From Aciduricibacillus chroicocephali (GTDB lineage: Bacteria > Bacillota > Bacilli > Bacillales > Amphibacillaceae), in NCBI RefSeq assembly GCF_030762805.1, contig NZ_CP129113.1, forward strand, positions 1,254,001 to 1,318,000: a stretch of 64,000 nucleotides of DNA. Direction: 5' to 3'. This document shows positions 13,801 through 29,107 of this stretch, one piece after another. Each line of letters begins with the position of its first letter. Positions within the stretch are counted from its first letter, which is position 1. The notes under the pieces were generated by a model. The model saw only the letters and a list, made by a program, of their open reading frames with translations. It did no database searches and was not told the DNA's origin. The position numbers and the translations under genes were made by a program.

Positions 13801-14025
13801 TTGGCAACATTCTGGATAGTAATCATTGCGATTGTTGCATTGCTATTGGGTACTGTACTTGGTTTTTTCCTGGCGAGAAAATACATGCTTACCTATTTGA
13901 AAAAGAACCCGCCAATCAATGAACAAATGCTTCGTACGATGATGATGCAAATGGGTCAGAAACCGTCTCAGAAGAAAATCAATCAGATGATGCGGTCGAT
14001 GAACAATCAGTTCGACAAGAAGTAA
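13801..14025 (+). CDS. yneF: YneF (UPF0154) small membrane protein, att-site gene
   Basis: A 74-residue protein starting at TTG 13801 behind AAGGAGG. One N-terminal membrane segment ([22 protein letters not shown]) is followed by a basic, Met- and Gln-rich tail ([19 protein letters not shown]) ending FDKK. This is the full length of UPF0154 proteins; function is unknown. Its last 100 bp are duplicated at 25759-25858 and, decayed, at 28205-28252, and an integrase gene follows at once. The gene therefore serves as an integration site, and the element restores an intact 3' end. Confidence 0.93.
13926..14025 (+). repeat. Direct repeat copy 1 (attL-like, 3' end of yneF)
   Basis: The final 100 bp of yneF including the stop codon. 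It is collinear without gaps with 25759-25858; by eye, 4 of 100 positions differ. It forms the left boundary of the inserted element. Confidence 0.92.
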
Positions 14026-14127
14026 GGATTTGAACTGCGTTTTGGACAAGCAAAAACCGTATAGCTTAAGCCTTCTAGAGTTTTTAGCTCTTGTGGGGTT
14101 ATTCTAATGGTTGATTTTACTCAAAAG

Positions 14128-14169
14128 CCACTTTTCTGTTGAAAGATTAAGCAGAAGGGTGGTTTTTTT
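14128..14169 (+). promoter_or_regulatory. Hairpin with T run enclosing the integrase ribosome binding site
   Basis: CCACTTTTCTG (14128-14138) pairs with CAGAAGGGTGG (14152-14162) and is followed by seven T, directly abutting GTG 14170. It has the form of a terminator for yneF. Its 3' arm also contains the only ribosome binding site (AGAAGGGTGG) for the integrase. Integrase expression should therefore be limited both by termination and by sequestration. The same arrangement recurs at 25927-25970. Confidence 0.7.
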
Positions 14170-15078
14170 GTGCTTTTAGAAGATGGATTAGGCGAATACG
14201 ATTATCATTGCATGGCTAGGAATTATACCCCTAAGACAATGAAAAATAAGCGCCAAGAGTACAAGCAATTTTTAAAATTTATAATCGAAAAGCGTGGGGT
14301 TAAAGAACTGGAGAACATTACACGCTATGATTTAGAAGCCTATGTACGATTAAAGAGGCAAAAGGGATTAAAGCCACAATCAATTGTTTCAACGGCAAAG
14401 CAAATTATTGCATTTTTCAATTGGTGTGTTTCAGAAGAGTATATAGCAGAGAATCCTATGAACAAAGTCGCTTTGCCTAAAGTTCCTCGGAAGAAGCTTG
14501 AAGGTTTCACATCTCAAGACGTAAATAGGTTAATTATGTGTTTTAATTACTCTAGTTATCTAGAAGCAAGAAATAAAGCTATTATTGCAATGATGGCGGA
14601 CTGTGGTCTTAGAGCAATGGAAATTAGAGGGATTAAAGAGAAGAATGTAAAACAACTTGAAATCTTAGTTAATGGCAAAGGCAATAAAGAAAGAGTTGTC
14701 TTTATCAGCCCTGCTCTTAAAAAGATTCTAATCAAATATGAACGTATTAAAACACTTCACTTCAAAGATGAAGCTCAAATAAAATATGCCGATAACTACT
14801 TTCTTAATTATCGTGGAGAACCGCTATCACACCCGGGGGTTTATAACCTTGTAATTGAAGCTGGGAAGCGAACAAATATTAAAAATGCTCATCCCCATAA
14901 ATTCAGACATTTCTATGCAGTTAAGGCACTAGAAGAAGGGATTGATTTATATAGCCTTAGCAGGCTTTTGGGACATTCTGATATCTCAACTACCCAAAGA
15001 TATTTGGAAAGCCTTACAGATACTCAATTGGGATTAAAAGCTAATTCTAGTAGTCCCTTGATGAATTTGAAGAGCTAG
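14170..15078 (+). CDS. int: Tyrosine-type site-specific integrase
   Basis: A 302-residue tyrosine recombinase. The N-terminal core-binding (SAM-like) domain spans roughly residues 5-95 ([20 protein letters not shown] ... [19 protein letters not shown]). The catalytic domain has the first Arg in [29 protein letters not shown] (HxxR), [17 protein letters not shown] with the late His and nucleophile Tyr. It would integrate and excise the element at the yneF 3' end. The start GTG 14170 is supported by conservation of the same start (GTGCTTTTA...GATG) in the second, decayed integrase at 25971. No excisionase gene is evident nearby. Confidence 0.93.
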
Positions 15079-15289
15079 AAAAAGAAAGTGGAACGTAGAA
15101 ACGGATACGACGGTTTTACCCATAATGGATGATGGATTAGAGATATGGATAATGAGAAAAGGGTGCTGTAGATCTTAAGGGAAGTGATGATACGTTTTCT
15201 TAATAATGAAGATGTTAAGTAGGAGGGATATATAACCATCTAGGTGTTATATGTGTATTTTTAATTATTAAAATGGTAATATTATAATG

Positions 15290-15322
15290 AAAACTCCTAG
15301 TGCTGTAACACTAAGAGTTTTT
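15290..15322 (+). terminator. Rho-independent terminator
   Basis: AAACTCCTAGTG pairs with CACTAAGAGTTT around CTGTAA, followed by TT. It is probably the integrase terminator, about 210 bp after its stop. Confidence 0.8.
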
Positions 15323-15370
15323 CCGTCACAACCACAGGTTATGTGGTGACCAGTTAATTCAATAGAAGTG

Positions 15371-15423
15371 AAAGTAACCATGCCTCTATCTCATTCCACT
15401 GAACAGGGCATGGTTACTTTTTT
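15371..15423 (+). terminator. Long rho-independent terminator
   Basis: AAAGTAACCATGCC pairs perfectly with GGCATGGTTACTTT around a 22-nt loop, followed by T. Confidence 0.8.
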
Positions 15424-15621
15424 GTCTTCATAAACCTGTCTATAAGCAATCTGAGTTAGTGTAGATTTTCATGTGTAATTGTTCTTCTGGAACACTTAGA
15501 AAAACGGTACCCATCATGGATGAGGATACCTCCATAGGGCTAAGCTCAAAATTAGATGATCCCCAATATAGGGTATCTAAATAGAATGCTTCTTCTTTTC
15601 AAACAAGTGAGCAATGAATTG

Positions 15622-15667
15622 TATAACCTCATTACACGTGTAATAGAGGTATAGGTTAGCACCTCTA
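15622..15667. repeat. Palindrome with mutually exclusive second hairpin
   Basis: TATAACCTCATTACAC (15622-15637) is almost perfectly complementary to GTGTAATAGAGGTATA (15638-15653). TAGAGGT (15644-15650) can pair instead with ACCTCTA (15661-15667). The two structures compete for the same GAGGT bases. This could be an operator, an attenuator, or part of an origin or nick region. Confidence 0.6.
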
Positions 15668-15814
15668 TCCACGCAAATATATTACTAAATATTTCGATAC
15701 GAGAAGGATATTTTCTGTTTTTTAACCATTGAAAACACCTAAATAATGAGTGTTTTTAAAGTAATTCTCGAAACGTGTCTGGTATATCATTTTTTATATC
15801 AACTGATTATTGAT

Positions 15815-15835
15815 TATATTTCTGATAGAAATATA
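15815..15835. promoter_or_regulatory. Perfect dyad, probable operator
   Basis: TATATTTCT-GAT-AGAAATATA is a 9-bp perfect inverted repeat ending one base before the -35 region of the leader RNA promoter. This is a position typical of a regulator binding site. Confidence 0.6.
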
Positions 15836-15864
15836 TTATATTTCCAATATTAAAGTGCTATAAT
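15836..15864 (+). promoter_or_regulatory. Extended -10 promoter for the structured RNA
   Basis: TATAAT at 15859-15864 is preceded by TG one base upstream (TGCTATAAT), giving an extended -10. A weak -35 (TTATAT, 15836-15841) lies 17 bp upstream. Transcription would begin near 15871. Confidence 0.65.
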
Positions 15865-15870
15865 TTTCTC

Positions 15871-16072
15871 AACAAATATCAGAAATTTAATTAATCTTAT
15901 AAAAGCAAACTATGAAGGAGTTGAATTTACATGCAACCGCCTCTTTAGAGGCACACTATATATTTCTGTAATCCTATGTATTGGCCATAGGATAGGTTAA
16001 TTATGCCTATATTAGACAGAATTAAGTGTGTTTTCTAATGGGGTGGATCGCATGTAAATTCACTCCTTTTTT
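15871..16072 (+). ncRNA. Structured leader or small RNA with terminal stem and terminator
   Basis: A 19-bp stem with one bulge joins 15915-15934 to 16050-16068 and ends in a T run (16067-16072). Inside are perfect hairpins GCCTC-TTTA-GAGGC (about 15939-15952) and ATCCTATG-tattggc-CATAGGAT (15971-15993), and a possible ATTAGA/TCTAAT stem near 16011-16039. The 5' arm of the closing stem contains AAGGAG and then ATG 15931 of a five-codon ORF (MQPPL), so translation of this peptide would disrupt the stem. It may be a ribosome-controlled attenuator for the next gene or an independent RNA. The family is not recognised. Confidence 0.65.
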
Positions 16073-16155
16073 GTGTTGTTTTAAGGAATGAATTTAGTCC
16101 CAGTCTAGCAGTTGAAAATTAATAGCCATGCGGGCTTATAACGCAGTAGAAAACA

Positions 16156-16443
16156 ATGGAAAAAGTTAACAATTCGTATAAAATCCAATTCAAAACTACT
16201 GATATTGAGGGCGCTACTCTTCATCACTTGGTATATGAATTTGAAATGCATTCTGCTGAGGAATTACTCGCACTGAGTCTTACAGAAGGACGTTATACCA
16301 AATTTAAGCGTACAACGGATAAACAATGGTATACATTCCGAACATTTGCTAAACGTTTGTCTGAGCGGCAGTTGTCTGAAAAGGCGTTTAATGAATTTAA
16401 TAAATTTGATCGAATTGAAGAATATGAAACGAGTGTCAAATAA
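16156..16443 (+). CDS. Small hypothetical protein
   Basis: A 95-residue protein, MEKVNNSYKIQFKTTDIEG at the start and rich in charged residues, with no membrane segment. The middle (LSLTEGRYTKFKRTTDKQWYTF) is basic and could contact nucleic acid. The ribosome binding site is poor, which lowers confidence. It is the first gene after the structured RNA terminator and would be the target if that RNA is an attenuator. I do not recognise the family. Confidence 0.5.
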   Translation: MEKVNNSYKIQFKTTDIEGATLHHLVYEFEMHSAEELLALSLTEGRYTKFKRTTDKQWYTFRTFAKRLSERQLSEKAFNEFNKFDRIEEYETSVK

Positions 16444-16636
16444 TCTAAGGATGATGATGATTGAGCCCTGGTTTCATTAAGCATATCTAGAACAAAACAA
16501 GTATTCTAAAACAACACAATTCCAAAATCCAATTTTAGAAAGTGGGGTGATGAAGTTGCTGAAAAACGTAGTGTCGGGCAATGATACATTGTCGAGAGTA
16601 CAAGCTTCAAACATCAGTGTTTAAACAATGTAGTAA

Positions 16637-17091
16637 ATGAAAGAGTTTGAATATATAGAAAACTTTAGTGAAGGTAGTAATAAAACAGACAAACTTACCA
16701 GTGCTTGTAGGGAATGTAATATTAACCGAGAAAAAACGTAGAGCAAATGATGGTGATTTCACTAAGGAGCAAAAGCAAGCAACCTTCGATAAGTACGGTT
16801 CATTCTGTCAAATCTGCTACAGTAGTTGTGAATTACAGATAGACCATAAACTACCGTAAAATATCTCTAAGCCTAATGCAGCTAGTATTGAAGATAATGC
16901 TTGGGTATTGTGTAAAGGCTTGCAATATTGCTAAAGGGACAAGAATCCTAATAGAAGTTATTGAATCCATATCAAGTAAGATATTAGGACCAATGCTATT
17001 ACAAGAATATGCTAAACCAATTGCTCAATGTAATTTTATAACAAAAACAGGTATGATTGGTAAAGAGCCGTATACCTTAGTGAAAATCTAG
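16637..17091 (+). pseudogene. HNH endonuclease, broken by frameshifts and a stop
   Basis: Pieces in alternate frames form one HNH protein. ATG 16637 reads MKEFEYIENFSEGSNKTDKL to CRECNINREKT. After a shift near 16738 comes RRANDGDFTKEQKQATFDKYG, SFCQICYSSCELQIDHKLP, then TAA at 16858. The same frame continues NISKPNAASIEDNAWVLCK, and a second shift at about 16916 restores KACNIAKGTR and the C-terminus. The CxxC, DH and C-x-x-C-N residues match the HNH/ββα-metal fold. At least three lesions mean that it is inactive. It belongs to the element cargo and is unrelated to the HNH gene at 18459. Confidence 0.75.
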
Positions 17092-17123
17092 TGCCGATTT
17101 CAGACACTAATATAGTGATAGTG

Positions 17124-17195
17124 CATATTTAGCATTACCCTAATGAAAATATTGCACTAGGGTAGTGCAAAAAATGTAAAATAGTAGTGCGAAAT
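17124..17195. repeat. Iteron-like TAGTGC repeats upstream of rep
   Basis: The motif TAGTGC(A/G) recurs at about 17128, 17163 and 17184, with an inverted copy forming TTGCACTA-GGG-TAGTGCAA (17152-17170). Short repeats and a palindrome just upstream of an initiator gene are typical of plasmid replication origins or of operators autoregulating Rep. Confidence 0.5.
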
Positions 17196-17375
17196 TTGCC
17201 CAATATAAGAGAAAGCATTAGAGGATAATATAAGAGCATAAATAAACAGGGTCGCTTGCGCTCTTAGTCGCTCCGCTCCCTTCTATTCTATCTCTCTATT
17301 GCAAACAGGGGAATAAGACTAAATAAAGACATTCGTTATGACTCAAATAAAATATAAAGATTTGAGGAAGTTACG

Positions 17376-18182
17376 ATGAAAAATAGTAAAATAGGATTTA
17401 TTAAATTTAATGTGAATTTAATGGATGATTATGAATTGAAGGTCGGCGAAACGCTTGTATACGGTGCATTGGTTTCGTTTACAAATATGAGTATTCTATC
17501 AAATACGAAAGATGAACAAGGCCATGTATACGCTTATCCGCCGATCTCAAAAATTGCAAACATTACAGGGCAATCAGAAAGAAGCGTTAAGAGTCATATT
17601 CAAGTATTGGAACGAAAAGGATTAATGACAGTTAAAAGATCGTATAAAGAAGGCGGTAAAGAGAAGAACGTAAACCATTACTATCTTAGAGCTGAGGTGT
17701 TAAAGGTTTATTTTCCTGCTGACACTCCTGCTGTATCAGATAAGATAGCTAAACCAAAAAAGAAACATTCAGAGGTAAAGCATAAAGAGTTTAGTCAAAG
17801 TGCGTTCATTGCAAATGCTAAAATTGAAAAATGGTTTACTCATTACGAAGGTGAACACAATAATAATTCTGCCAGAAAGCTCAACCAATTAGAGGACAGG
17901 TATGGGGCAAAAACGGTTGTCAAAGCAATTCATAATGCCATGAACGGTGTGAATATTGAAAGTTTATCTCAAGGTACAACTGGGTTTATGTTAAGCCGCT
18001 TGAAAGATGGTAACCTAGAGGATGCACAGCGTCAATTGAAGAATGAGAAAGAATCACAAGAGAGGTTTATGAATGAATCTATTTCACCTCAATTTGACTA
18101 TAAAGCAGCATTGAAAAAAGAAAAACGGGATAATAAAACAGTTGCAGATAATATCGAGAAACTATTGGGGGGTGTTTTATAA
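17376..18182 (+). CDS. Plasmid/phage-type replication initiator (winged-helix)
   Basis: A 268-residue protein. The N-terminal part (KIGFIKFNVNLMDDYELKVG, VYGALVSFTNMS, then YPPISKIANITGQSERSVKSHIQVLERKG) is a winged-helix DNA-binding domain as in plasmid Rep and phage replisome-organizer proteins. The middle is basic, and the C-terminal region (FTHYEGEHNNNSARKLNQLE onward) resembles the accessory domain of these proteins. It probably binds the repeats upstream and loads the host replisome after excision. ATG 17376 follows GAGGAAG. This gene suggests that the element can replicate as a circle, or derives from something that did. Confidence 0.72.
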   Translation: MKNSKIGFIKFNVNLMDDYELKVGETLVYGALVSFTNMSILSNTKDEQGHVYAYPPISKIANITGQSERSVKSHIQVLERKGLMTVKRSYKEGGKEKNVNHYYLRAEVLKVYFPADTPAVSDKIAKPKKKHSEVKHKEFSQSAFIANAKIEKWFTHYEGEHNNNSARKLNQLEDRYGAKTVVKAIHNAMNGVNIESLSQGTTGFMLSRLKDGNLEDAQRQLKNEKESQERFMNESISPQFDYKAALKKEKRDNKTVADNIEKLLGGVL

Positions 18183-18458
18183 TAACTATGTGTACTATGA
18201 GGTAGCTCAGATTTGGGTTATCTCTTTTTTTATAATTTTCGGATGAATGAACATATGTGCAAGATAAAAGTAAGTGTACCTAAATTATTAAAACTCGTCT
18301 TTTATTATTTGCTACAACAAGCTATATTGAATGTAGAAGAAAGAGGATTATCTGTAATTTTGTTTCTTCAAGGACAAACATTAGGTGAGTAATTACATTT
18401 TTAATCATTAAATACAAAGGAAAATGATGATTTATCAAAATATAGAGGTGCTAATCAA

Positions 18459-20057
18459 GTGACGATACCGAAAAATATAAAAAGAGAACATATAATACAA
18501 GCGATGCAAAAGATTGAGGGAGAAGAAGTACCAGAGCGAAGGAAGTCAACGAGGTTCAATCTTTGTTATGAGGGTAAATATTATCCACCTAAATACGTTA
18601 TTTCAATAGCTAACATATTCGCTAATGGTGAAGAATATCCTCCTACTAATTTCAGTGGTGGTGATGAAACTAATAGATTCCTCAATAATATAGGCTTTAT
18701 CATAGTTGAAAATAATTCTAATGAAATAGAAGATGAAAAAGGGGAAATTGATTTTAAATTAGAAGTACCTGCTATTAGACTATTGCCCATGTCAGAAGAT
18801 GATCCAGAATTTACAGCAAAAACTATAGCAGATTTGCAAGAATGGTTTGTAAATGAATTGCCTTTTAGGAAATATAACTTTAAGAAAGGAATGAAGGCAG
18901 ATTCTGGTACGCTAGTTTTATTTCAATATAAAAAGCATGTGATTGCTTCTGCAATTCTTGAAGAAAAAATACTGTATGAAAATGAAGGGAAATTTGAGGG
19001 AGGATATAGAGGAGCATACTATTTTAATCCTTCATCAATAGCTATTTTTACTCCTATTAATTCTGAGGAAATAAAGAATATTTGGGCTCATTTTAAAGGG
19101 TTTAATCAGTCACTTCAAAAGTTGAATGTAAAACAATGTGAATTATTTTATCGACTTCTTTTAAGTAAAAATATTAGATATGTACTTGATGAAGGTACAG
19201 AAGATAAAAGAATATTAATTAGAGTGCCACCACTTGAACCCGTCAGCCGTTCAAGGGAATATGATCTTTATTATGACGCTATAAAAGATATAGTTGTTTA
19301 TGAATCTCTTTTTAATTCTAAAACACACCGTTGGCTTGATGAGCATGTTATAGGTTTGAATTCTGATGAAAGTCGTGGCTATCAAGCAATGGGAATATTA
19401 CATTACATTGGATTAAAGGATAAACATAAAGGAATCTTTGATAACCTGAGCATAAATGAAGCAATAAAACTGTTAGAACATCAGGTTACTGACTTTAGTT
19501 TGGTTATTCAATCTCTTCAAAGGTATGAACAAAAAGAGAATAGAGAACTAGATATAGAGGATAGGTCCTCGACTGACGTATATATTGAAGTAGAATCAAT
19601 TGTCAAAGCTGCACCAGAGCAAATTGAAATAACCGAGACTGAAAAAGAACGAGTCATTAAGTCTAGAATAGGTCAATCAACGTTTAAGAAATCCCTTATA
19701 AATATTGAAAAGAAATGCAGCTTATGTAGCGTTACAGATGAACGATTTTTAATAGCTAGTCATATCAAGCCCTGGAGTCAATCTAATAATCGAGAGCGGT
19801 TAGATGCCAATAATGGGTTACTACTTTGTCCTAATCATGATACGTTGTTTGATAAGGGTTATATTAGTTTTGATGAAGATGGGGTAATTTTGGTTTCTAG
19901 TAGTTTAGATAAGAGAACCAAAATTTTTCTGAATATTAATGAAAATATAAAAATCAAAATGAATAATAATCAGCAAGACTATATGAAGTGGCATAGAGAT
20001 AATTTATATTCGGAATTCAAACAATTAAGTACTAAGGGAGAACGTTATGGAAGCTAG
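18459..20057 (+). CDS. McrA-like HNH endonuclease, putative modification-dependent nuclease
   Basis: A 532-residue protein. Residues 1-82 (IPKNIKREHIIQAMQKIEGE ... YYPPKYVISIANIFANGEEY ... FSGGDETNRFL) match the N-terminal head domain of ScoMcrA-like nucleases. Residues about 105-285 include TLVLFQYKKHVIASAILEE, which has the look of a PUA/EVE-like base-reader fold (inference). Residues 395-475 form an HNH_2 nuclease: C420/C423, H435 in ASHIKPW, N451, C457 and H460. McrA-type enzymes cut DNA carrying modified bases, so an anti-phage role is plausible. GTG start behind AGAGGTG. The stop overlaps the next gene by 11 bp. Confidence 0.82.
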   Translation: MTIPKNIKREHIIQAMQKIEGEEVPERRKSTRFNLCYEGKYYPPKYVISIANIFANGEEYPPTNFSGGDETNRFLNNIGFIIVENNSNEIEDEKGEIDFKLEVPAIRLLPMSEDDPEFTAKTIADLQEWFVNELPFRKYNFKKGMKADSGTLVLFQYKKHVIASAILEEKILYENEGKFEGGYRGAYYFNPSSIAIFTPINSEEIKNIWAHFKGFNQSLQKLNVKQCELFYRLLLSKNIRYVLDEGTEDKRILIRVPPLEPVSRSREYDLYYDAIKDIVVYESLFNSKTHRWLDEHVIGLNSDESRGYQAMGILHYIGLKDKHKGIFDNLSINEAIKLLEHQVTDFSLVIQSLQRYEQKENRELDIEDRSSTDVYIEVESIVKAAPEQIEITETEKERVIKSRIGQSTFKKSLINIEKKCSLCSVTDERFLIASHIKPWSQSNNRERLDANNGLLLCPNHDTLFDKGYISFDEDGVILVSSSLDKRTKIFLNINENIKIKMNNNQQDYMKWHRDNLYSEFKQLSTKGERYGS

Positions 20058-21180
20058 TCTACAGGAGAGTATAAAATTATCAGAGGTAATAGGTGAATCA
20101 GAATTTGGATCATTAATATCGATATTAGGTTTGATAATTACTATAACAGTATTCATTTATCAAGAGAGAGGTAAACTTCAAGAAAAAACAAAAGAGACTA
20201 TGAGGCTAACTGAAGAACTAGTGAATTTAATTGTTAGAAACTCACTTAGTAATGGAAACGGTATACCTCTTAGGAGTATCAATCTAACATATTTTTTAGA
20301 GGGATATAAACAATTAAAAAACAGTGTTATGAGAGAAGATAACATTCTTTTATCTAAGATGGTATATGCTAAAATCTATGAGAATGAACACATAGCTAAT
20401 AATGTTAGAGAGCAGATGTTGATTGAAGTTAAAGACATTATAGAAGAATTTGAAGAGAGTGCGAATATTAAGAAGAAAACTTTTGGGATTAGAGGATTAG
20501 TAAAGTTGTTCTTTTCTTCAATTTTTGTTACAGCACTAGTTATACTTATATTTGTACTTCCAAGTTGGTTGAAGGTGCTTGTTCAGACTGATACTTTAAG
20601 TGGAACATTAAAAGTTATAATCTTTATCACTCTGGTTCTTCTCGCATTAGTGATAATTCCCATAACCATTAATGTTGTAATAAAGCCGTTAGTTACGGAG
20701 ATTGATAATTTACTAGATTTAGCTGATGATAATTTTTTAAATTGGAAAAGAAAATATGGTAAGAATGTTGGGCGTGAAAAATCTAGTGGAAATGAACCTT
20801 TAATTAAACCTACTCAAGAAAAAAGTGATGAAGATAATCTAAATAGATTAAATTTATTAAGGTTTGTTAATGATGAAAAGATTTTAGTCGAGATTTTTAA
20901 GCACCGCTTTATGCTAGAAAGGTACATTAGAGAAATATTCACAAGAAAATTTAAAGGTGATACTGATAGATATTATACATTCAGTAAACTACTAAATCAG
21001 CTAATTTCTGATCGTATAATTGATAAGGATTTAGGAGGTATGGCTAAGAAGTTATATTCATGGAGTAGCAAAGTGATACATGAAGGAGATCAAGAAATAG
21101 ATCAGGTTATGTATCAAAACAATATAGCTTCTATGAATAGATTGGTTCAATATTTTGAGGACATACTCTCTAATTGGTAA
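20047..21180 (+). CDS. Three-span membrane protein with HEPN/DUF4145-like C-terminus
   Basis: A 377-residue protein. TM1 is at residues 21-38, a cytosolic helical region with coiled-coil character spans 40-145, TM2 is at 152-172, TM3 at 186-210, and a cytosolic tail at 215-377. The tail (LERYIREIFTRKF ... LLNQLISDRIIDKDL ... SSKVIHEGDQEID) resembles the helical DUF4145/HEPN-like domains common in defence islands; the residues KVIHEGD sit where HEPN proteins have RN-x-x-xH-G. ATG 20047 lies inside the end of the HNH gene (11-bp overlap, site AGGGAG). Coupled translation with a McrA-like nuclease points to one two-gene system, with this protein as membrane sensor or effector. The family is not securely identified. 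Confidence 0.68.
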   Translation: MEASLQESIKLSEVIGESEFGSLISILGLIITITVFIYQERGKLQEKTKETMRLTEELVNLIVRNSLSNGNGIPLRSINLTYFLEGYKQLKNSVMREDNILLSKMVYAKIYENEHIANNVREQMLIEVKDIIEEFEESANIKKKTFGIRGLVKLFFSSIFVTALVILIFVLPSWLKVLVQTDTLSGTLKVIIFITLVLLALVIIPITINVVIKPLVTEIDNLLDLADDNFLNWKRKYGKNVGREKSSGNEPLIKPTQEKSDEDNLNRLNLLRFVNDEKILVEIFKHRFMLERYIREIFTRKFKGDTDRYYTFSKLLNQLISDRIIDKDLGGMAKKLYSWSSKVIHEGDQEIDQVMYQNNIASMNRLVQYFEDILSNW

Positions 21181-21403
21181 CTAAGTTTGTAGTTGGTATG
21201 AAGCTTTGTGTCAAATGATATCTAAACTAACCTTGAAGTAAAGAATGTTAATTAAATGAGCAGAAATTGTATCATTTTACTGCTGGTCACCAAGCACTTG
21301 ACAAGTTCGATTCCAAGACTCATTTATTATATCAGTTAAATGTTTAATGGTATAATCTGGTTTTAATTGATTATTTACCTATTTTATGTACTGGGTTAAC
21401 ATA

Positions 21404-21676
21404 TTAATCTAGTATTTGAAGTTTAGCATGTCGATTATCAATAATTTCTTGTATGTCGTAAACAGTTCTTAAAAAATCAATCCCTGAATTAATATCTCTA
21501 TAGCAATCCACGATTTCCATAGTTTTTAAATTAATTAAGATGATGGGGAATTCTTCTTCTTTTTTTAATTTCGAACTCGTATAGGTTGTAAACATAAAGT
21601 AACCTTGTTTACATTTTATAATGTCTTTCAAGCCAGCATTATAATGTACTTTTGTGCGAACATCTTCTATAAACAA
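21404..21676 (-). CDS. Small hypothetical protein
   Basis: A 90-residue protein from TTG 21676, with GTGGTGG as a weak ribosome binding site. Sequence features are mixed: MFIEDVRTKVHYNAG, a β-rich middle (YFMFTTYTSSKLKKEEEFPI) and an acidic C-terminus. There is no membrane segment. It is transcribed against its neighbours in the element. The family is not recognised and its reality is uncertain. Confidence 0.45.
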   Translation of the reverse strand: MFIEDVRTKVHYNAGLKDIIKCKQGYFMFTTYTSSKLKKEEEFPIILINLKTMEIVDCYRDINSGIDFLRTVYDIQEIIDNRHAKLQILD

Positions 21677-21732
21677 TACGGTACACCACCACTTTATTTA
21701 ATAATCTTATTATTATATATATTATCTTTAAA

Positions 21733-21923
21733 GTAAAAGGTATAGCATCAGCAAAGGCACAGGGTAAACATTTAGGAAGACCTAAAACACCTATTACATT
21801 GGAATTTGATGAAGCTTATAAGTCATGGAGAGCAGGAGAAATGACCGCAGTTGAAGCAATGAAGAAGTTAAAGATGACTAAGGCTACATCTATCTTAGAG
21901 TGAAGGAATATGAAGCTAGCTAA
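21733..21923 (+). pseudogene. Serine resolvase C-terminal remnant
   Basis: The frame reads GIASAKAQGKHLGRPKTP, the linker and start of the helix-turn-helix domain of resolvase/invertase proteins. It continues AYKSWRAGEMTAVEAMKKLK and, after a shift near 21895, RVKEYEAS with a stop at 21921. The catalytic N-terminal domain is absent, so only the DNA-binding tail of a TnpR-like gene remains. It suggests that an earlier transposon or plasmid resolution module was lost from the element. Confidence 0.7.
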
Positions 21924-21926
21924 GTA

Positions 21927-21950
21927 GACTCCACAAAGGGGTCTTTTTTA
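21927..21950 (+). terminator. Short terminator-like hairpin
   Basis: GACTCC-acaaa-GGGGTC followed by TTTTTT, just after the resolvase remnant. Confidence 0.65.
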
Positions 21951-22265
21951 AGTTGATGAGATGGGGGGAGATTTCCACATTTTCACAAGGTCCTTGGTAG
22001 GGAGAAGGGCAAGGTTGCTACATCGACACGTCCCATAAGTTATAGAGTTATCTATAGAGAAAGTTACCAAGAACACTGAATAAAAACATTTTTAAAGGTA
22101 TGTGATAGTGTTTCACACACTTTGAGCAACTGTACGCTCACTAAACGAATTTTTTCCAAATCTATTAATTGTTATAGTAAGATAAATTTGAACGATTTAT
22201 AGTTGCAAACTATATTTTTTAAATTTTATGAATGATCAAAACTTAAAGAGGTTAGGGATAAATAA
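21951..22265. other. Intergenic, promoter region of the MazF-fusion gene
   Basis: No gene is visible. The sequence becomes very A+T-rich after 22140. I see no clear operator or antitoxin ORF between the resolvase remnant and the fusion gene. AAAGAGGTTAGGG before ATG 22266 is a plausible ribosome binding site. Confidence 0.5.
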
Positions 22266-23246
22266 ATGACGAGAAAAAATAGTAGTAGGGATACTAGATA
22301 TACATTAGTGGAATGGATTGGATCTCAAGAAGAAGAAGAAAGGCTTTCTGGTAGTATATTAAGCTCTGAAGGATATGAATCGGTTGACCCTATGCATCCT
22401 TTAGGTGGAAGAGATGGTACAAAGGACCTCAAATGCACCAAAGGAGGAATTACATTTATTGGCGCATGCTATTTTTCGAGAGGACAACAAACGTTTGCTA
22501 AAATAAGAAAGAAATTTTCTGAAGATCTAGAAGGGGTTGATAAAAATAATGCTGAGGGCTTTATTTTTATTACGAATCAAGAAATATCGGTTACAGAAAG
22601 AAAAAAACTTGAACAACTAACTGATCATCGTGTCGATATATTCCATTTAGAGAGAATAATTCACGTATTAAATAGTCCTGCGAACTTTGGAATTAGATTG
22701 CAGTTTCTTGATATTGAAATGACAAAAGAAGAAATGATATCGTTTATGGCTTGGACGCAAAACAAACATACTGAATCCCTAACTACCTTTATGAAATCTA
22801 TAGAGCAGCTTTCAAAGGGCTATGGGAAAAGTAAGGAACACAAAGTTGATACCGTAATAGAAATGGAAAAAGAACCAAAACAAATGTCTTCAGATATTAA
22901 TGTAAATAAGGGAGATGTATATTTAGCAAATTTAGGTAATGGCATTGAATCTGAGCAAGGTGGGATTAGACCTGTAGTGATAGTGTCTAATCATATAAAT
23001 AATAGATTTTCTCCTATGGTGACGATTGTACCTGTTACAAGTCAAATTACAAAAGCTAAACTGCCAACACATGTTGAACTTGGTTTTTTACTTAACAAAG
23101 AAAGAGCGAGTGTGGTTTTGGTCGAGCAAATTAAAACCATTAGTAAAAAAAGATTAATGCAATTAATTACAACCTTAGATGCAGAATTAATAAATGCTAT
23201 TAATGATGCTATAATTATTCAAATGCAACTAGTTGATTTTAGGTAG
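22266..23246 (+). CDS. Fusion of a restriction-endonuclease-like module with a MazF/PemK toxin domain
   Basis: A 326-residue protein. Residues about 10-155 (DPMHPLGGRDGTKDL, FIGACYFSRGQQTFAKI, AEGFIFITNQEISVTER, FGIRLQFLDIEMTKEE) form a module I recognise as a frequent N-terminal part of bacterial defence-type proteins with a suspected nuclease-like fold. Its catalytic residues are not obvious. Residues 160-212 are a linker. Residues 213-322 are a MazF domain: KGDVYLANL, GGIRPVVIVSN (catalytic Arg235), TIVPVTSQITK (Thr259) and VLVEQIKTISKKRL. MazF enzymes cleave single-stranded mRNA. No MazE-like antitoxin lies within 300 bp on either side, so the N-terminal module may restrain or trigger the toxin. 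Confidence 0.8.
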   Translation: MTRKNSSRDTRYTLVEWIGSQEEEERLSGSILSSEGYESVDPMHPLGGRDGTKDLKCTKGGITFIGACYFSRGQQTFAKIRKKFSEDLEGVDKNNAEGFIFITNQEISVTERKKLEQLTDHRVDIFHLERIIHVLNSPANFGIRLQFLDIEMTKEEMISFMAWTQNKHTESLTTFMKSIEQLSKGYGKSKEHKVDTVIEMEKEPKQMSSDINVNKGDVYLANLGNGIESEQGGIRPVVIVSNHINNRFSPMVTIVPVTSQITKAKLPTHVELGFLLNKERASVVLVEQIKTISKKRLMQLITTLDAELINAINDAIIIQMQLVDFR

Positions 23247-23290
23247 GTTAAAACACAATCAAAATTTGCCGAGTTACTGTCTTTATTAAG

Positions 23291-23320
23291 AGCATCACCA
23301 AAAGGTAAGATGCTTTTTTT
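23291..23320 (+). terminator. Rho-independent terminator
   Basis: GCATC/GATGC hairpin with a 12-nt loop, followed by seven T. It ends the MazF-fusion gene. Confidence 0.75.
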
Positions 23321-23546
23321 GGGGATTACAACAATTAATGAAATATTGGTTTTAGTACTATTTACCGCACTTTTTTTAATGATTACATATCGGTCAGATA
23401 ATTTAATGTGCCAGTTAAATGATGGATACTCTCCTTACTCTTGCAATGTAGTATATAACATTAGAAACACTGAATGGTTTATGGGTAAATTTTACAATTT
23501 ATGCTGTATGCATGTTATAATTTAATACTGCGAGGGGGGAAATAAA

Positions 23547-24647
23547 TTGGGATTAGGATTTAGAAAGAGTTTTAAGGTTGCACCTGGTGTAAGAATTAAT
23601 GTCTCGAATAAGAGTGTTGGAATAAGTGGAGGCGTTAAGGGATTAAGGTATTCTGTAAATTCAAGAGGACAACGTAGAACCACTGCGGCTATCTCTGGAA
23701 CAGGTATTTCTTATACCAGTACATCAAGTTCTGGAAGAAGATATAAAAGTGCTGCGCAGCATAATAGACAGCAATTAATTCGTCAGCAAAAAGAAATTGC
23801 AAAACAAGAGGAGATACAGAGAGCAAAATATGAGGTTGAAGCGTATGAAAATAAAATTGAACTAATACATTCAATTCATAAAGAATGTGACGATGCTTTC
23901 GACTGGTTAGATATAAGTCGTTCTAGACATCCGCATCATAATAATCAAATGGGTAAATATGAAATAGAAGCGCAGCATAAGCTAGATTCTTTTAAGCCTA
24001 GTTTAATGCAGAAAATTATGAAATCTAGTAATAAAGCTGAACAGAAGCTACGTGAAGAGTTAACAACTGCTAAAGAAGAAGATCACAAAGAATTTCAAGA
24101 GTTGCAAAGAACTATAGACATTGCTAACAGAATATTAGATAAAGATGTTGAAACCTACCTTAGAGTTATTGAAGAGCTTTCACCGTTGGAAGATCTTTTA
24201 GAATTTGGTAGTGGTTTTGAATTCTTCATTGATGACCCTGCGATGCTAGAGGTTGAATTTAATGTCCATTCGAAAAATGTAGTACCAACACAAGTTAAAT
24301 CTTTAACTAAAACTGGTAAACTTTCAGTGAAAGATATGACTAAATCAAAGTATTATGATATTTATCAAGATTATGTTTGTAGTTGTGCAATTCGTATTGC
24401 TAGAGATATGTTCTCTGTTCTACCTTTTGAAACTGTTGTTGTCCATGCCGTGGATGAACGACTTGATACATCTACAGGTAAAGAATCAATAATTACAATT
24501 CTTTCTGTGAAATTTATTAGAGAAACACTTAATACTCTTAATTTTGAAGCGATCGATTGCTCAGATTCAATGGTAAACTTTGTTCATAATATGGATTTTA
24601 AGAAAACAAAGGGCTTTTTACCTGTAGATAAGTTAAGTGTCATTTAA
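23547..24647 (+). CDS. DUF4236 domain protein with coiled coil and unknown C-terminal domain
   Basis: A 366-residue protein from TTG 23547, with GAGGGGGG as ribosome binding site. Residues 1-55 are a DUF4236 domain (FRKSFKVAPGVRINVSNKSV, GVKGLRYSVNSRG, SGTGISYTSTSS), a glycine-rich β structure found in many bacterial and phage proteins. A coiled coil (residues 70-115, QQLIRQQKEIAKQEEIQRAK) and a folded C-terminal region of about 200 residues follow. No catalytic motif is recognisable. It follows the MazF-fusion gene but is separated from it by a terminator. Many DUF4236 proteins occur on mobile DNA; function is unknown. Confidence 0.75.
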   Translation: MGLGFRKSFKVAPGVRINVSNKSVGISGGVKGLRYSVNSRGQRRTTAAISGTGISYTSTSSSGRRYKSAAQHNRQQLIRQQKEIAKQEEIQRAKYEVEAYENKIELIHSIHKECDDAFDWLDISRSRHPHHNNQMGKYEIEAQHKLDSFKPSLMQKIMKSSNKAEQKLREELTTAKEEDHKEFQELQRTIDIANRILDKDVETYLRVIEELSPLEDLLEFGSGFEFFIDDPAMLEVEFNVHSKNVVPTQVKSLTKTGKLSVKDMTKSKYYDIYQDYVCSCAIRIARDMFSVLPFETVVVHAVDERLDTSTGKESIITILSVKFIRETLNTLNFEAIDCSDSMVNFVHNMDFKKTKGFLPVDKLSVI

Positions 24648-25352
24648 GTCTTCCTTTAATTGAGGAGGCTTTTTCTTACTTCATTAAATAACTATCTGGT
24701 TTAACAAAAATGATTTACTGCTTCTAGTATTCTCCCTACTTATCTTACTTATGTTTTATTATCCAATACTTAGGTTGAATAATGTTGAAAAACTACCCTT
24801 CACCTGCTACAATTGAATGAACAAATAATGTGGAAAATTGATTCGGCTATAATTTTAAATAAACTGTTAAATGTTGATATATCAATGACGTTGCACATGT
24901 TAACCGCATTGTGTATGACATTACGTCTAAGCCACCTGCTACTATTGAGTGGGAATATGACTGTTCAGTAATATAAACTAAACAGGTTATAAACGCAGTA
25001 AATGTCTAACGTAGTTTCTTGAGAACTAAATTAATGGTTAACGTACAACTATTTATATTTCAAAAATTAAACTCTCTTTTAGTTATTTATAGCAAATAAC
25101 TAAAAGAGGTTTTTTGTTATAGTTAAAATAAGTGACTTGAATGATGACTTTAGAATGAATCAGCAAATTTATGGTCGTAAAGATGATTATAATGAATACT
25201 ATTTGGCTATGAATTATTTCACTAATTTTTTACTGACACATGCAAGGGTAGACAGTACACTAATAAAGTAAAAAGATTTAATTCAATAAAATAAGGTACA
25301 TTATATTTGTTGAATAAATTCTATTTTAAGATAAGAAAAGTAGGTGATCAAC
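24648..25352. other. Non-coding stretch with a gene remnant and a strong terminator
   Basis: No intact gene is visible in 700 bp. A weak hairpin with T run follows the DUF4236 gene (about 24649-24677). Two related fragments occur at 24800-24826 (SPATIE, then stop) and 24890-24979 ([20 protein letters not shown]), without start codons, so they look like a duplicated and decayed small gene. A strong terminator lies at 25068-25116. Confidence 0.5.
25068..25116 (+). terminator. Strong rho-independent terminator
   Basis: AAACTCTCTTTTAGTTATTT pairs with AAATAACTAAAAGAGGTTT around a 5-nt loop, followed by TTT. Confidence 0.85.
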
Positions 25353-25502
25353 GTGGGGAAATATCAATTGGATACCAAAAGTCAGATGGCAGCGGCAAAA
25401 TATCAAGAAAAACAAACACATGCTAAATTTGATAAAAAACAGCAACTTGAAAAGATACGTGCTGGATATTTGAAGAAAAAGCAAAACCAAACAGAAAAAT
25501 AA
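25353..25502 (+). CDS. Small basic protein
   Basis: A 49-codon ORF from GTG 25353, with TAGGTGAT as ribosome binding site. The product is highly basic and helical (KYQLDTKSQMAAAKYQEKQT, then QQLEKIRAGYLKKKQNQTEK), Lys/Gln-rich and without hydrophobic segments. A terminator follows immediately, which supports a real single-gene unit. It could bind nucleic acid. No family is recognised. It is the last gene of element 1 before the right repeat. Confidence 0.55.
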   Translation: MGKYQLDTKSQMAAAKYQEKQTHAKFDKKQQLEKIRAGYLKKKQNQTEK

Positions 25503-25512
25503 TTTGAATGAG

Positions 25513-25546
25513 AACATAGGATGACTAAAATCTACCTATGTTTTTC
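25513..25546 (+). terminator. Rho-independent terminator
   Basis: ACATAGG/CCTATGT with a 14-nt loop, followed by TTTTCTT, after the small basic protein gene. Confidence 0.75.
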
Positions 25547-25758
25547 TTATTTAAAGTTCTTTTTTTAATTGATAAATGGTTTGTTATTGTGATTTACAGA
25601 AGAGCAATGGGGGCTTAGTAGCTTTGTTTTTTAATTGATGAAGGATTTACCATATATCTTCTGTAATTATGAAAAAGGTAGACTTCATATGGAGATTATG
25701 CTAAATTTATCTCAACAGAAAAGTAGCAGATGTTGCTTTTCCAAAACGTTGATTTATC

Positions 25759-25858
25759 AATGCTTCGTACGATGATGATGCAAATGGGTCAGAAACCGTC
25801 CCAGAAGAAAATCAATCAGATGATGCGGGCGATGAACAATCAGTACGACAAGAAATAA
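25759..25858 (+). repeat. Direct repeat copy 2 (yneF 3' end, junction of the two elements)
   Basis: A collinear copy of the last 100 bp of yneF, with four substitutions by eye. In the yneF frame it still reads [19 protein letters not shown] and ends YDKK with a stop. The amino-acid changes (Ser to Ala, Phe to Tyr) are conservative, so this copy came from a functional yneF allele and has not simply decayed. No ribosome binding site or N-terminal half is present. Confidence 0.93.
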
Positions 25859-25926
25859 GAATTCAACCTTTCGTATCAAGGGTTTGAGACTTTTCTTAGC
25901 GTAACAGCTAAAGCTTACCAAAGAGA

Positions 25927-25970
25927 CCACTTTTCCTGTGAAAACTAAAGCAGGAAGGGTGGTTTTCTTT
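25927..25970 (+). promoter_or_regulatory. Second copy of the integrase leader hairpin
   Basis: CCACTTTTCCTG pairs with CAGGAAGGGTGG and is followed by TTTTCTTT and GTG 25971, matching 14128-14169 in form and position. Conservation between two diverged copies supports a functional role. Confidence 0.7.
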
Positions 25971-26104
25971 GTGCTTTTAACAGATGCAATTGAAGAATAT
26001 GATGTATATAGCTACTCAATGCTTCTAGGCCAATGAATCAAATATATCTTAAGAGCCTTACAGAGGAAGAATTAAGCTTAAGGGCTAAAATAGTAGTCTT
26101 TTAG
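25971..26104 (+). pseudogene. Internally deleted tyrosine integrase
   Basis: GTG 25971 opens LLTDAIEEYDVYSYSM, matching the N-terminus of the intact integrase ([14 protein letters not shown]). It then jumps to LLGQ, corresponding to LLGH near residue 265 of the intact protein. After a frame change it reads NQIYLKSLTEEELSLRAK, matching [18 protein letters not shown] at the C-terminus. About 250 codons including the catalytic Arg residues are missing. The remnant dates an earlier integration at the same site. Confidence 0.82.
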
Positions 26105-26223
26105 AGAGTAACACCTTTACTAGTAGAGCTTAAACAGACAGTTAAAATTATTAATTTTTATTCTTTACTTAAATGGTATAATATAATTAATGATGAAAAT
26201 AATTACAAAATAAGAGGTATTAT

Positions 26224-27774
26224 ATGGATATAAAAGAGCAATCTGTATTTTTCTTAACTAATTCTTTAGACGTAAACCGTGGAGGACTATCAAAAGCTGT
26301 TCTCGCCCAAACTAAGACATTTGTTGAGAATGGGTACAACACGCATCTCTTAACCTTTAATTTTAATACGCGCTATAACATAATAAGAGAAGAACTAATT
26401 GCACTTGGCCAACTGGATTCTAATGTTAAGCTTTATAATATGTACGATTTACTCTGCGGCATAGAAGAGGATTCAATCACACCGTTGAATTTAAAGGAAA
26501 CAGGATACCTAGACAAACGTGATGGTTATAACGCTTATCGTGTATATGAAAATGGTATGTATGTCAGATATAGAAGCTACCATCAAGATGACTCTTTAGA
26601 TTTTATCGATCATTTTGATGAACATAGATATAGAACAAAGAGAGAAATATATGATAACTATGGGCATATAAGAAAAGTATCTTTTATGGATTTTGCTCTC
26701 AATAAGCCAAGACAAATGATCTTTTACAACAATAAGGGAACAGCCTATTTATCTAAATGGGTTAATCCAGAAACAGGAAAGGCAATTCGCGTAAACTGGT
26801 TCGACGACGATGGGAAGATAAAAGCTACTTATAAAAATGATGATGAACTTAAGGTTAAATGGATTGAAAGAATGATATCATCATCTGATAATCCTGTTAT
26901 CATTTCAGACTCAAGAATGACTGATGCTTTGATGCTCAAGATCAGTAATAAGGATGCAGTTAAAATATGGAGATTACATAGCAATCACTTGACAGTGCCA
27001 TTTGAAAACGACTCAGATATAGCTCCAACCGTACAATTAGGAATGGACAACTTAGCCAAGATTGACGCGGCAGTAGTTCTCACTAATCACCAGAAGCGAG
27101 AAATTGAGGAGAGATTTGGAAAGTTAGATAATTTATACGCAATTCCTCATGCTTTTGAGTCTAATTTGAAGAAGAATTTCTTTGGCAAACTTAATGTAAA
27201 GAAAGATGAGAACAAGGCAGTTGTAGTCTCTAGGTTGTCAAAAATAAAGAATATACATCATATGATAAAAGCTTTTGAGATAGTAGTTAAATCGTTGCCA
27301 GAGGCTAAGCTTGATATTTGGGGCAACGGCAATGAAAAAGAAAGTATCCAAACGTTGATTAATGAACTTGAACTTGAAAACAATGTATTTCTTAAAGGAT
27401 ATACCAATGATCCATCGGGGAAATATCAGAGCGCATTGTTTGGGCTCTTAACATCTAAAACAGAAGGCTTTGCACTCTCTATTTTAGAAAGTATGGCTAA
27501 TGCTACTCCTGTAATAAGCTATGATATCAGATATGGTGCTAGAGAAATGATTGAAAATGGCAAGAACGGTGTGCTTATAGAGAAGAATGATATTGATCAG
27601 CTTGCAAAGGAAATGATCAAGATGTTTTGCAATCCAGACAAGGCAATAAATATGGGAGAAGCCGCATACGATACGATTAAGAATCAGTTCAACAACAAAG
27701 TATATGCTGATAATTGGAACAAGGTAGTTTTCGGTGCAATAGCCAATCGTAAAAAGAAGAACAGTAAAAATTAA
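26224..27774 (+). CDS. GT4 family glycosyltransferase, TagE/GtfA-like
   Basis: A 516-residue protein. The N-terminal Rossmann half starts FFLTNSLDVNRGGLSKAVLAQ. A β-rich insertion at about residues 95-185 (YRVYENGMYVRYRSY ... NPETGKAIRVNWFDDDGK) is typical of the DUF1975-type domain of poly(glycerol-phosphate) α-glucosyltransferases and of Gtf1/GtfA proteins. The C-terminal GT-B half has VVSRLSKIKNIHHMIKAF, LDIWGNGNEKESI, and SKTEGFALSILESMANATPV with the donor-binding ExxxxxxxE motif. It probably glycosylates wall teichoic acid or a surface protein in the cytosol before export. AGAGGT precedes ATG 26224. As cargo of a mobile element it could alter phage receptors. Confidence 0.82.
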   Translation: MDIKEQSVFFLTNSLDVNRGGLSKAVLAQTKTFVENGYNTHLLTFNFNTRYNIIREELIALGQLDSNVKLYNMYDLLCGIEEDSITPLNLKETGYLDKRDGYNAYRVYENGMYVRYRSYHQDDSLDFIDHFDEHRYRTKREIYDNYGHIRKVSFMDFALNKPRQMIFYNNKGTAYLSKWVNPETGKAIRVNWFDDDGKIKATYKNDDELKVKWIERMISSSDNPVIISDSRMTDALMLKISNKDAVKIWRLHSNHLTVPFENDSDIAPTVQLGMDNLAKIDAAVVLTNHQKREIEERFGKLDNLYAIPHAFESNLKKNFFGKLNVKKDENKAVVVSRLSKIKNIHHMIKAFEIVVKSLPEAKLDIWGNGNEKESIQTLINELELENNVFLKGYTNDPSGKYQSALFGLLTSKTEGFALSILESMANATPVISYDIRYGAREMIENGKNGVLIEKNDIDQLAKEMIKMFCNPDKAINMGEAAYDTIKNQFNNKVYADNWNKVVFGAIANRKKKNSKN

Positions 27775-27779
27775 CAAAG

Positions 27780-27811
27780 AGACTGGATAAATGTAATCCA
27801 GCTTCTTTGAA
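27780..27811 (+). terminator. Terminator-like hairpin
   Basis: CTGGAT/ATCCAG with a 7-nt loop followed by CTTCTTTG, just after the glycosyltransferase stop. The T tract is imperfect. Confidence 0.5.
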
Positions 27812-28204
27812 TTATCACAGCCGCATTGTTGCTCTTTTTGTTTGCCTTATAGAGTAAGAAGAGAGTCGATCAAGATTGAAAATGTTAAGCTTTTGTCCCT
27901 TTTAATAGTGACACCGATCAGTTATATTTTGGTGATTGGACTGTATATACGCGTTATTATTCCCAAAAGATATTACAACCGCGAGCTTGGATTGCGTAAA
28001 CTATCTACGGGGTTGAACGAAAGCGTATGATTATCGTGATAATTTAGTGGTCAATATGTTTGATGTTGCATTGCTCCAAGGTGTGCCAGTGGTAAAAAAC
28101 TGCAAGCGTTATCATGTTGGAACTATGTTCATGTTTACTTAACAGTTAAATGTCTTGTATGGTATGTATAAAAGCTATTTAAATTCTCATCACATTAAGG
28201 TTTT
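27811..28204. other. Decayed region at the right end of element 2
   Basis: No convincing gene is visible. Fragments include a hydrophobic frame near 27885-28028 (SLLIVTPISYILVIGLYIRV), and a frame at about 28025-28145 reading YDYRDNLVVNMFDVALLQGV then PVVKNCKRYHVG, which lacks a proper start. These look like debris of one or two genes. Confidence 0.4.
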
Positions 28205-28252
28205 GATGCAATTGGCTTAGAAACCGTTTCAGATGAAAAATAAGGATTCAAC
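28205..28252 (+). repeat. Decayed third copy of the yneF 3' end
   Basis: Starting at GATGCAATTGG, the bases follow copy 1 (GATGCAAATGG) through AAACCGT and CAGA with scattered changes. They then skip an internal piece and match the region around the stop of copy 2 (GAAAAATAAGGATTCAAC against GAAATAAGAATTCAAC). In the yneF frame it reads MQLA-stop-KPFQMK against [11 protein letters not shown]. It probably marks the outer right boundary of the array. Confidence 0.6.
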
Positions 28253-28402: not shown

Positions 28403-29107
28403 ATGTCCGAGATAAATATTTTTCTTGCTTTTGGTGCTGGTTTTCTCTCTTTTATCTCACCATGTGTGCTGCCACTTTTCCCAGCTTTTGTATCCTATAT
28501 TACTGGGATGAGCGTAAGTGAGCTAAGCGCTGATAACAAGCGTCTGAATCGGCGCAGTCTGTTACATACGATATTGTTCCTGCTTGGTTTCTCTACAATA
28601 TTCCTAGTGCTTGGCTTTAGTTCCTCCTTCATGGCAGAATTTCTAACAAAGTACGAAGATTTAATCAGGCAACTTGGTGCACTGCTCATCGTATTCTTTG
28701 GTCTTATTCTTATAGGAGCACTTAATTTTGAATTTTTGATGAAAAATCGCAAGGTTCATTTTAAGAATAGACCTGCCGGATATTTCGGATCATTTATTAT
28801 TGGAATGGCCTTTTCAGCCGGATGGACACCATGCACAGGGCCAATTCTCTTTATTGTAATCTCGATGGCGGCAACGAACCCTGAACTTGGCATGATATTG
28901 ATGATCAGTTACACGCTAGGCTTTGCGATACCATTTCTCATCCTTTCTTTCTTCATTGGAAAACTGGGATGGATTCGCCGAAACAGTATGCGCATTGTAA
29001 AAATTGGTGGTTACGTCATGATTGCCTTTGGCGTTGCTCTGTTCTTTGATTGGATGACAAAGCTTACATCATTCCTGTCCTCGTGGCTTGGTTTTACTGG
29101 TTTTTGA
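28403..29107 (+). CDS. ccdA: Cytochrome c biogenesis protein CcdA
   Basis: A 234-residue integral membrane protein with six predicted spans. The conserved cysteines lie in FLSFISPCVLPLFPAF and GWTPCTGPILFIV. CcdA carries reducing equivalents from cytosolic thioredoxin across the membrane to extracytoplasmic thiol-disulfide proteins used in c-type cytochrome maturation and in spore cortex formation. Length is normal and AGGAGGG lies upstream of ATG 28403. It opens the ccdA - MrpB-like - ccdC cluster. Confidence 0.97.
   Translation: MSEINIFLAFGAGFLSFISPCVLPLFPAFVSYITGMSVSELSADNKRLNRRSLLHTILFLLGFSTIFLVLGFSSSFMAEFLTKYEDLIRQLGALLIVFFGLILIGALNFEFLMKNRKVHFKNRPAGYFGSFIIGMAFSAGWTPCTGPILFIVISMAATNPELGMILMISYTLGFAIPFLILSFFIGKLGWIRRNSMRIVKIGGYVMIAFGVALFFDWMTKLTSFLSSWLGFTGF

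Follow-up and report, generated by a model that had tools for sequence, protein, structure and literature searches.

A probable TagE/TarM-type wall teichoic acid glycosyltransferase kept in a decayed yneF-site element, with a resident TagE that looks inactive elsewhere in the genome

We analyzed a 64,000-nt window of the Aciduricibacillus chroicocephali chromosome (contig NZ_CP129113.1, positions 1,254,001 to 1,318,000) and found an open reading frame (ORF) that probably encodes a wall teichoic acid (WTA) glycosyltransferase of the TagE/TarM type, brought in horizontally by an element specific for the yneF gene that has since decayed, and kept to restore or replace WTA glycosylation. We give this reading as a whole a probability of about 0.68. 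The family, fold, and active site of the enzyme, the attachment sites, the relic in the element, the residue loss in a resident paralogue, and the lack of a detectable GtaB were all computed. The source genome is a single contig of 2.73 Mb (97.3% complete), and the genus is represented by this genome only in our comparison set. The enzyme itself belongs to a known kind, and the genomic context is the noteworthy part.

The 516-aa protein matched Glycos_transf_1 in Pfam (134.6 bits), and Glyco_trans_A_1 (PF09318) scored 24.5 bits in one search and 27.7 in the genome search, with a cut-off of 27.4. The best phmmer match was TarM (4wac, E = 2.5e-48), followed by SdgB (4.9e-45) and Gtf1 (9.5e-22). 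Among NCBIfam profiles, SdgA (201.7 bits) and SdgB (192.5 bits), the NF047880/NF047881 pair, both scored below their cut-off of 800, and GtfA (TIGR02918, 104.2 bits) scored below 574.6. The AlphaFold2 model of the monomer (mean pLDDT 92.0, pTM 0.88) has a GT-B catalytic core whose N-terminal half contains an inserted beta-sheet domain (strands at about 95-203), and Foldseek placed SdgB (7vfl, E = 3.1e-45) and TarM(Se) (7qd7, 5.0e-45) at the top, with the GtfA/B complex 5e9t also among the matches. Structure-based comparison with VIA-align found TarM (4x7r, Z = 40.7 over 482 residues, rmsd 3.0) and SdgB (7vfl, Z = 37.3) to be closest, ahead of GtfA (4pqg, Z = 33.0) and BshA (Z of about 30).

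Residues G21, H252, R337, K342, E414, and E422 align with TarM G17, H249, R326, K331, E403, and E411, which are described as UDP-glucose contacts in the cited part of the TarM work, where E403A severely reduced activity (PMC10672168). Two TarM sugar-contact positions are changed, with H309 in place of N304 and I341 at position 330, which is Gln in glucose-using and Thr in GlcNAc-using TarM (PMC10672168). Assigning the donor from this position was dropped, as it is Ile here and highly variable across the 56 rows of the family alignment (E 19, L 12, I 7, Q 7, and others). Reading the gene as part of a defense system was also rejected, with no match in PADLOC and with PF20706 (GT4-conflict) at 23.3 bits, below the cut-off of 26. 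Fold and active-site residues place the predicted protein among the GT4 glycosyltransferases of the TagE/TarM/SdgB/GtfA type, in agreement with the TagE/GtfA-like class named in the initial annotation.

The gene lies in a 14.4-kb interval between yneF and ccdA (Table 1), where yneF was identified by Pfam (UPF0154, 109 bits) and by the NCBIfam YneF family profile (125 bits against a curated cut-off of 135). In 20 of 29 sampled relatives from the same bacterial family, ccdA starts 110-887 nt past yneF, and we therefore regard the entire yneF-ccdA interval as an insertion; in the other nine, ccdA was absent from the 1.5 kb viewed after yneF, and two of these have the yneF-site recombinase there.

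Table 1. Features of the yneF-ccdA interval and its borders; positions are those of the window.
Feature	Position	Strand	Remarks
yneF (UPF0154)	13801-14025	+	Target gene, with copy 1 at its 3' end
Attachment-site copy 1	13926-14030	+	105 nt, direct repeat, yneF 3' end
Element 1	14026-25758	+	Between copies 1 and 2; younger-looking neighbor
Intact tyrosine recombinase, element 1	14170-15078	+	Phage_integrase 97 bits
Attachment-site copy 2, start of element 2	25759-25863	+	100/105 identical to copy 1
Recombinase relic, element 2	25964-26088 (about)	+	Start and end pieces; most of the gene missing
Possible extended -10 promoter TGGTATAAT	26174-26182	+	Read from sequence
Predicted TagE/TarM-type GT4 glycosyltransferase, 516 aa	26224-27774	+	ATG start, no internal stop
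Terminator-like hairpin	27783-27801	+	Consensus scan
Degraded attachment-site copy 3, outer end of element 2	28204-28248	+	Precedes ccdA
ccdA	28403-29107	+	Ancestral right-hand neighbor of yneF

Relatives of the element 1 tyrosine recombinase (E of 1e-60 or less) were present in 9 of the 159 family genomes searched, including the source genome, with identities of 57-67% in the other eight, and in all nine the gene lies within 250 nt of yneF. Each of the eight other element-bearing genomes has a second yneF 3' end on the far side of the element, before ccdA, and these second copies are at least 60-165 nt long, 91-100% identical, and 13-39 kb onward. From the second copy to the ccdA match, the distance is 37-362 nt in seven genomes and about 1.5 kb in G090. 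When one candidate ORF per element was compared with the terminase large subunit family, a match was found in all five sister elements tested of the eight (the remaining three being those of G022, G037, and G090), and portal and major head protein were also matched in two of these five. Phage-like elements of one family therefore use the yneF 3' end as their attachment site, as indicated by the recombinases beside yneF, the duplicated yneF 3' ends, and the terminases. Our literature search found no report of the yneF 3' end in this role, the single co-mention concerning E. coli. A second case of tandem insertion, independent of the window, was observed at the yneF locus of G090, where the middle attachment-site copy is likewise degraded (34 nt, 88%).

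Element 1 contains, together with its recombinase, a phage-type replication protein, an HNH nuclease, and a PemK-type protein. Its cargo region at 18459-24647 encodes an HNH restriction-type protein of 532 aa, a 377-aa protein for which Pfam gave nothing, a PemK-bearing protein of 326 aa, and a DUF4236 protein. In the 326-aa protein (22266-23246), for which PADLOC gave nothing, the PemK match is confined to the C-terminal residues 215-318 and the first 200 residues resemble, by eye, a restriction-nuclease-type domain, making it a putative unusual fusion. On the left side of the window, two recombinase-like ORFs (230-3320, minus strand) have equal-scoring genome matches at 1256332 and 2601788 (G000:C1:2601788-2601907), which suggests that this recombinase element has a second copy elsewhere in the genome.

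The outer end of element 2 is marked by a degraded repeat, in which 30 of 36 nt match at 28204-28239 and the match continues to 28248 if one 43-nt gap is allowed. This copy 3 scores 47 against copy 1, the next-best site in the window scoring 31 when copies 1 and 2 are excluded, and none of 2,000 dinucleotide shuffles of the interval reached 47. It also aligns with the yneF genes of relatives (best E = 0.001), and it was not among the eight matches of a whole-genome search using copy 1. Its similarity exceeds chance, though it is weaker than the initial annotation implied. At the inner end, two pieces of the element 1 recombinase are preserved in their original order (start, 40 nt, 78%; end, 50 nt, 70%), and the interval 25864-26223 scored 113.5 against the recombinase region, with a maximum of 92.1 in 200 shuffles; tblastn with the relic pieces alone gave weak matches (E = 0.7-1.1). 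With its recombinase relic and attachment-site copies, element 2 is a decayed member of the yneF-site family in which one gene has been kept. The gene could either have arrived with element 2 or have been inserted into it later.

The ORF is the sole credible intact gene between copies 2 and 3, where the further ORFs of at least 60 aa are 27842-28030 (62 aa), for which Pfam gave nothing, and 27484-27777, which is antisense to the glycosyltransferase gene. Six-frame fragments of 27775-28204 gave a single weak match (E = 0.021) when compared with the eight sister elements and L114-L118. Earlier described as the lone cargo of element 2, the gene is indeed its lone intact gene, but the recombinase relic has been kept as well. 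The proposal that the gene was retained after the element decayed agrees with an intact ORF between a degraded recombinase and a degraded outer attachment site.

Homologues of the enzyme (E of 1e-60 or less) were found in 36 of the 159 family genomes, including the source genome, and nine of the others have a match at 46-50% identity. From the 35 other family genomes with a match we fetched 13 loci of 16-18 kb each, and all 13 contained tagG and tagH homologues. In the named genome collection, tagG and tagH were present in 19 of 35 scanned loci (48 were returned) and in none of the five nearest (L114-L118). The nearest relatives are from Bacillus sp. SD075 (62%), Peribacillus frigoritolerans (61%), Neobacillus mesonae (59%), and Heyndrickxia sporothermodurans (58%). 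For three of them, none of the searched WTA genes occurs within 10 kb, and the Neobacillus relative has TagF-type genes nearby, one of which encodes 1123 aa with a TarS C-terminal domain. In the tree, the window protein is sister to the Heyndrickxia, Neobacillus, Peribacillus, and Bacillus sp. genes with support of 94/97, of which 94 is under the starred limit of the tree, and a starred group of 18 rows includes the window protein, its four nearest relatives, and the WTA-locus clade. The nearest relatives are mostly lone genes in Bacillaceae, and the gene was probably acquired horizontally, transfer of a WTA-type enzyme being the simplest account. A compositional sign of transfer was looked for and discarded, as the third-position G+C of 0.331 falls between those of tkt (0.316) and acnA (0.364) and is not distinctive.

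Because homologues lie near tagGH in all 13 fetched family loci, WTA would be the likeliest acceptor, and the same loci support a cell-surface product as the likeliest outcome, as first suggested. Enzymes of this kind are described, in the cited part of the literature, as acting in the cytoplasm on a product that is a surface polymer (PMC5836110), so assignment to chromosomal paralogues whose role is intracellular, which would have counted against the initial annotation, did not result.

A divergent pair formed by a TagE-type enzyme and a long CDP-glycerol glycerophosphotransferase was observed in Neobacillus (L114), in Mammaliicoccus (L125), and on the Staphylococcus saprophyticus plasmid pUTI-050-2 (L038), where a 41% homologue lies beside the CDP-glycerol glycerophosphotransferase gene. 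The long glycerophosphotransferase carries a TarS C-terminal domain in L114 and L125, the two that were tested, and it is possible that such pairs represent a portable teichoic-acid module.

The alternative that survives best is a phage moron that would change the WTA receptor, keep competing phages from adsorbing, and be retained for the protection it still gives; we consider it possible but clearly less probable than restored or replaced WTA glycosylation. Lysogenization by TarP prophages changes the receptor and shuts out podophages (PMC9650247), TarM stops podovirus adsorption (PMC4667565), and S. epidermidis TagE decides between siphovirus and podovirus binding, its deletion leading to siphovirus resistance and podovirus binding (PMC11005348), and all three are precedents for a moron. 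Relatives at 32-35% identity occur on nine IMG/VR contigs, on one of which the gene comes directly after an amidase gene (L163) and on another it adjoins a Cro/C1-type regulator (L164), and the PHROG match falls in the moron category. With terminase genes in all five of the eight yneF-site elements that were tested, the lysogenic conversion proposed in the initial annotation is possible and stands on firmer ground than was known at that time. Against it, a glycosyltransferase homologue was found in none of the eight sister yneF elements, the nearest homologues are chromosomal genes with no phage neighbors recognized by eye, and no phage structural or packaging gene is recognizable between copies 2 and 3. 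The proposal is supported in part, and not in the form first given.

It is also unlikely that the gene is a silent passenger whose ORF is intact only because decay has yet to arrive. Such a passenger would fit the degradation of the rest of element 2 and the lack of a good -35 hexamer upstream, as a consensus promoter scan that requires this hexamer did not list TGGTATAAT. However, the 516-codon ORF has its active-site residues, a likely ribosome site (AAGAGG at 26212-26217), a possible extended -10, and a terminator-like hairpin, of which three were observed in the region against 1.2 expected.

The genome encodes one other full-length homologue (G000:C1:2094055-2095581, also L002 and L054:8053-9582), 28-29% identical to the window protein. 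It lies among TagF, TagD, TagA, GT2, GtrA, and YfhO genes, with TagG and TagH some 17-20 kb away, and the tree pairs it, on a long branch, with the enzyme encoded in the WTA locus of G058 (100/98), to which it is 34% identical. Residues H252, H255, R337, K342, E414, and E422 are kept in 55 of the 56 rows of the alignment, some of which are near-duplicates, and the resident paralogue has N, S, Y, T, and G at the first five, E422 alone being kept; it also has G21S and a Glu one position after 414. From these substitutions, the resident WTA-locus TagE looks inactive, and because it has lost most catalytic residues, the window enzyme is the only TagE/TarM-type enzyme found in the genome that is predicted to be catalytically competent.

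The resident paralogue is an ORF of 509 codons with no stops, and the fold is preserved in its AlphaFold model, where pLDDT averages 82.8 and drops below 50 at 260-266, 314-320, and 434-436. When the gene of a relative was randomly substituted to 36% identity, at least 8 stops appeared in 500 of 500 runs (mean 19.8), which is a rough null with no indels and no codon bias. An ordinary pseudogene is therefore unlikely, given the fold kept in the model and the lack of stops against at least 8 in every simulated run, and the resident ORF has probably been under selection.

The GT2, GtrA, and YfhO genes of the resident locus resemble an extracytoplasmic route of teichoic-acid glycosylation (PMC5836110), and by analogy this route may serve the present host too. 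GtaB/GalU was not found in the whole source genome, where the GtaB profile TIGR01099 reached at best 28 bits against a cut-off of 326.8 and detected the B. subtilis control. The GtaB of a relative used as query (E of 1e-30) likewise returned nothing in the source genome, with a match in 136 of the 159 family genomes. A TagE-type match persists in at least five more family genomes in which GtaB was not matched (G016, G056, G057, G091, and G144), and the enzyme of one of these, G057, has the complete motif, which makes it less plausible that the resident TagE died from the loss of GtaB alone. The donor in this host is likely other than GtaB-made UDP-glucose.

GtfB is known as a non-catalytic partner of GtfA, and a corresponding arrangement is conceivable here, in which the window gene would be a xenologue that took over WTA glycosylation, the resident pseudoenzyme would be its non-catalytic partner, and the pair would use a non-GtaB donor, such as UDP-GlcNAc; we regard this particular combination as quite improbable. 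Least likely is O-glycosylation of a surface protein, either serine-rich or with SD repeats, by an enzyme resembling SdgA/SdgB or GtfA, since even though these are the best NCBIfam profiles, in that order, and SdgB heads the Foldseek matches and is nearly as near as TarM by sequence and fold, the profile scores are far under their cut-offs, tree and synteny group the gene with WTA-locus enzymes, and no adhesin or accessory Sec gene was seen by eye in the element.

Returning to restored or replaced WTA glycosylation, the enzyme would be a TagE/TarM-type retaining alpha-glycosyltransferase located in the cytoplasm, with mechanism steps carried over from TarM and TagE. The C-terminal half (R337, K342, and E422) would bind the UDP-sugar and the N-terminal half the polymer chain, the sugar would be transferred with retention onto the poly(polyol-phosphate) chain of WTA, and TagGH would then export the glycosylated chain, resulting in a changed surface polymer. 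A phage-like integrative element specific for yneF would have carried the gene in by horizontal transfer, and the element has since decayed, its recombinase reduced to a relic and its outer attachment site eroded, with the enzyme gene kept. Here we infer the acceptor, the donor, expression, and the benefit to the host. The likeliest reason for retention is that the enzyme restored or replaced WTA glycosylation, whether or not phage adsorption is affected, and lysogenic conversion accounts for the retention no better than does replacement of a dead resident enzyme.

Compared with known systems, the window enzyme shares its full-length fold and six active-site residues with TarM (the WTA alpha-GlcNAc or alpha-Glc transferase of S. 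aureus and S. epidermidis), and its gene lies outside the WTA cluster, as tarM does (PMC4667565). It differs in its identity of only 26%, in the changed positions 304 and 330, and in its location inside an element, whereas tarM is reported, in the cited parts of two studies, not to be on a mobile element (PMC4667565, PMC9650247). With TagE, the poly(glycerol-phosphate) alpha-glucosyltransferase of B. subtilis and S. epidermidis, it shares the GT4 family and homologues in WTA loci near tagGH; TagE uses UDP-glucose (PMC5836110, PMC11005348), whereas no GtaB was found in the genome of the window. B. subtilis TagE was compared via its near relatives L133 and L136 only, both of which are in another part of the tree. 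The pUTI-050-2 glycosyltransferase is similar in its 41% identity and its mobility, but it is on a plasmid and divergent to the CDP-glycerol glycerophosphotransferase gene, and the window element has no such polymerase gene. TarP, a GT2-type enzyme, is encoded by intact S. aureus phages, in contrast to the GT4 enzyme of the window in its decayed element. Both would be WTA-modifying enzymes delivered by a temperate element, as reported for TarP prophages (PMC9650247).

Knowing that a group of phage-like elements integrates at the yneF 3' end helps to annotate this bacterial family. The strain described here would represent a natural case of a TarM/TagE-type enzyme in a chromosomal integrative element whose host has a resident WTA-locus copy without an active site. 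With this single strain it becomes possible to test whether cells retain accessory WTA glycosyltransferases to change the phage receptor or to replace a lost host function, and also whether catalytically dead TagE homologues still have a role.
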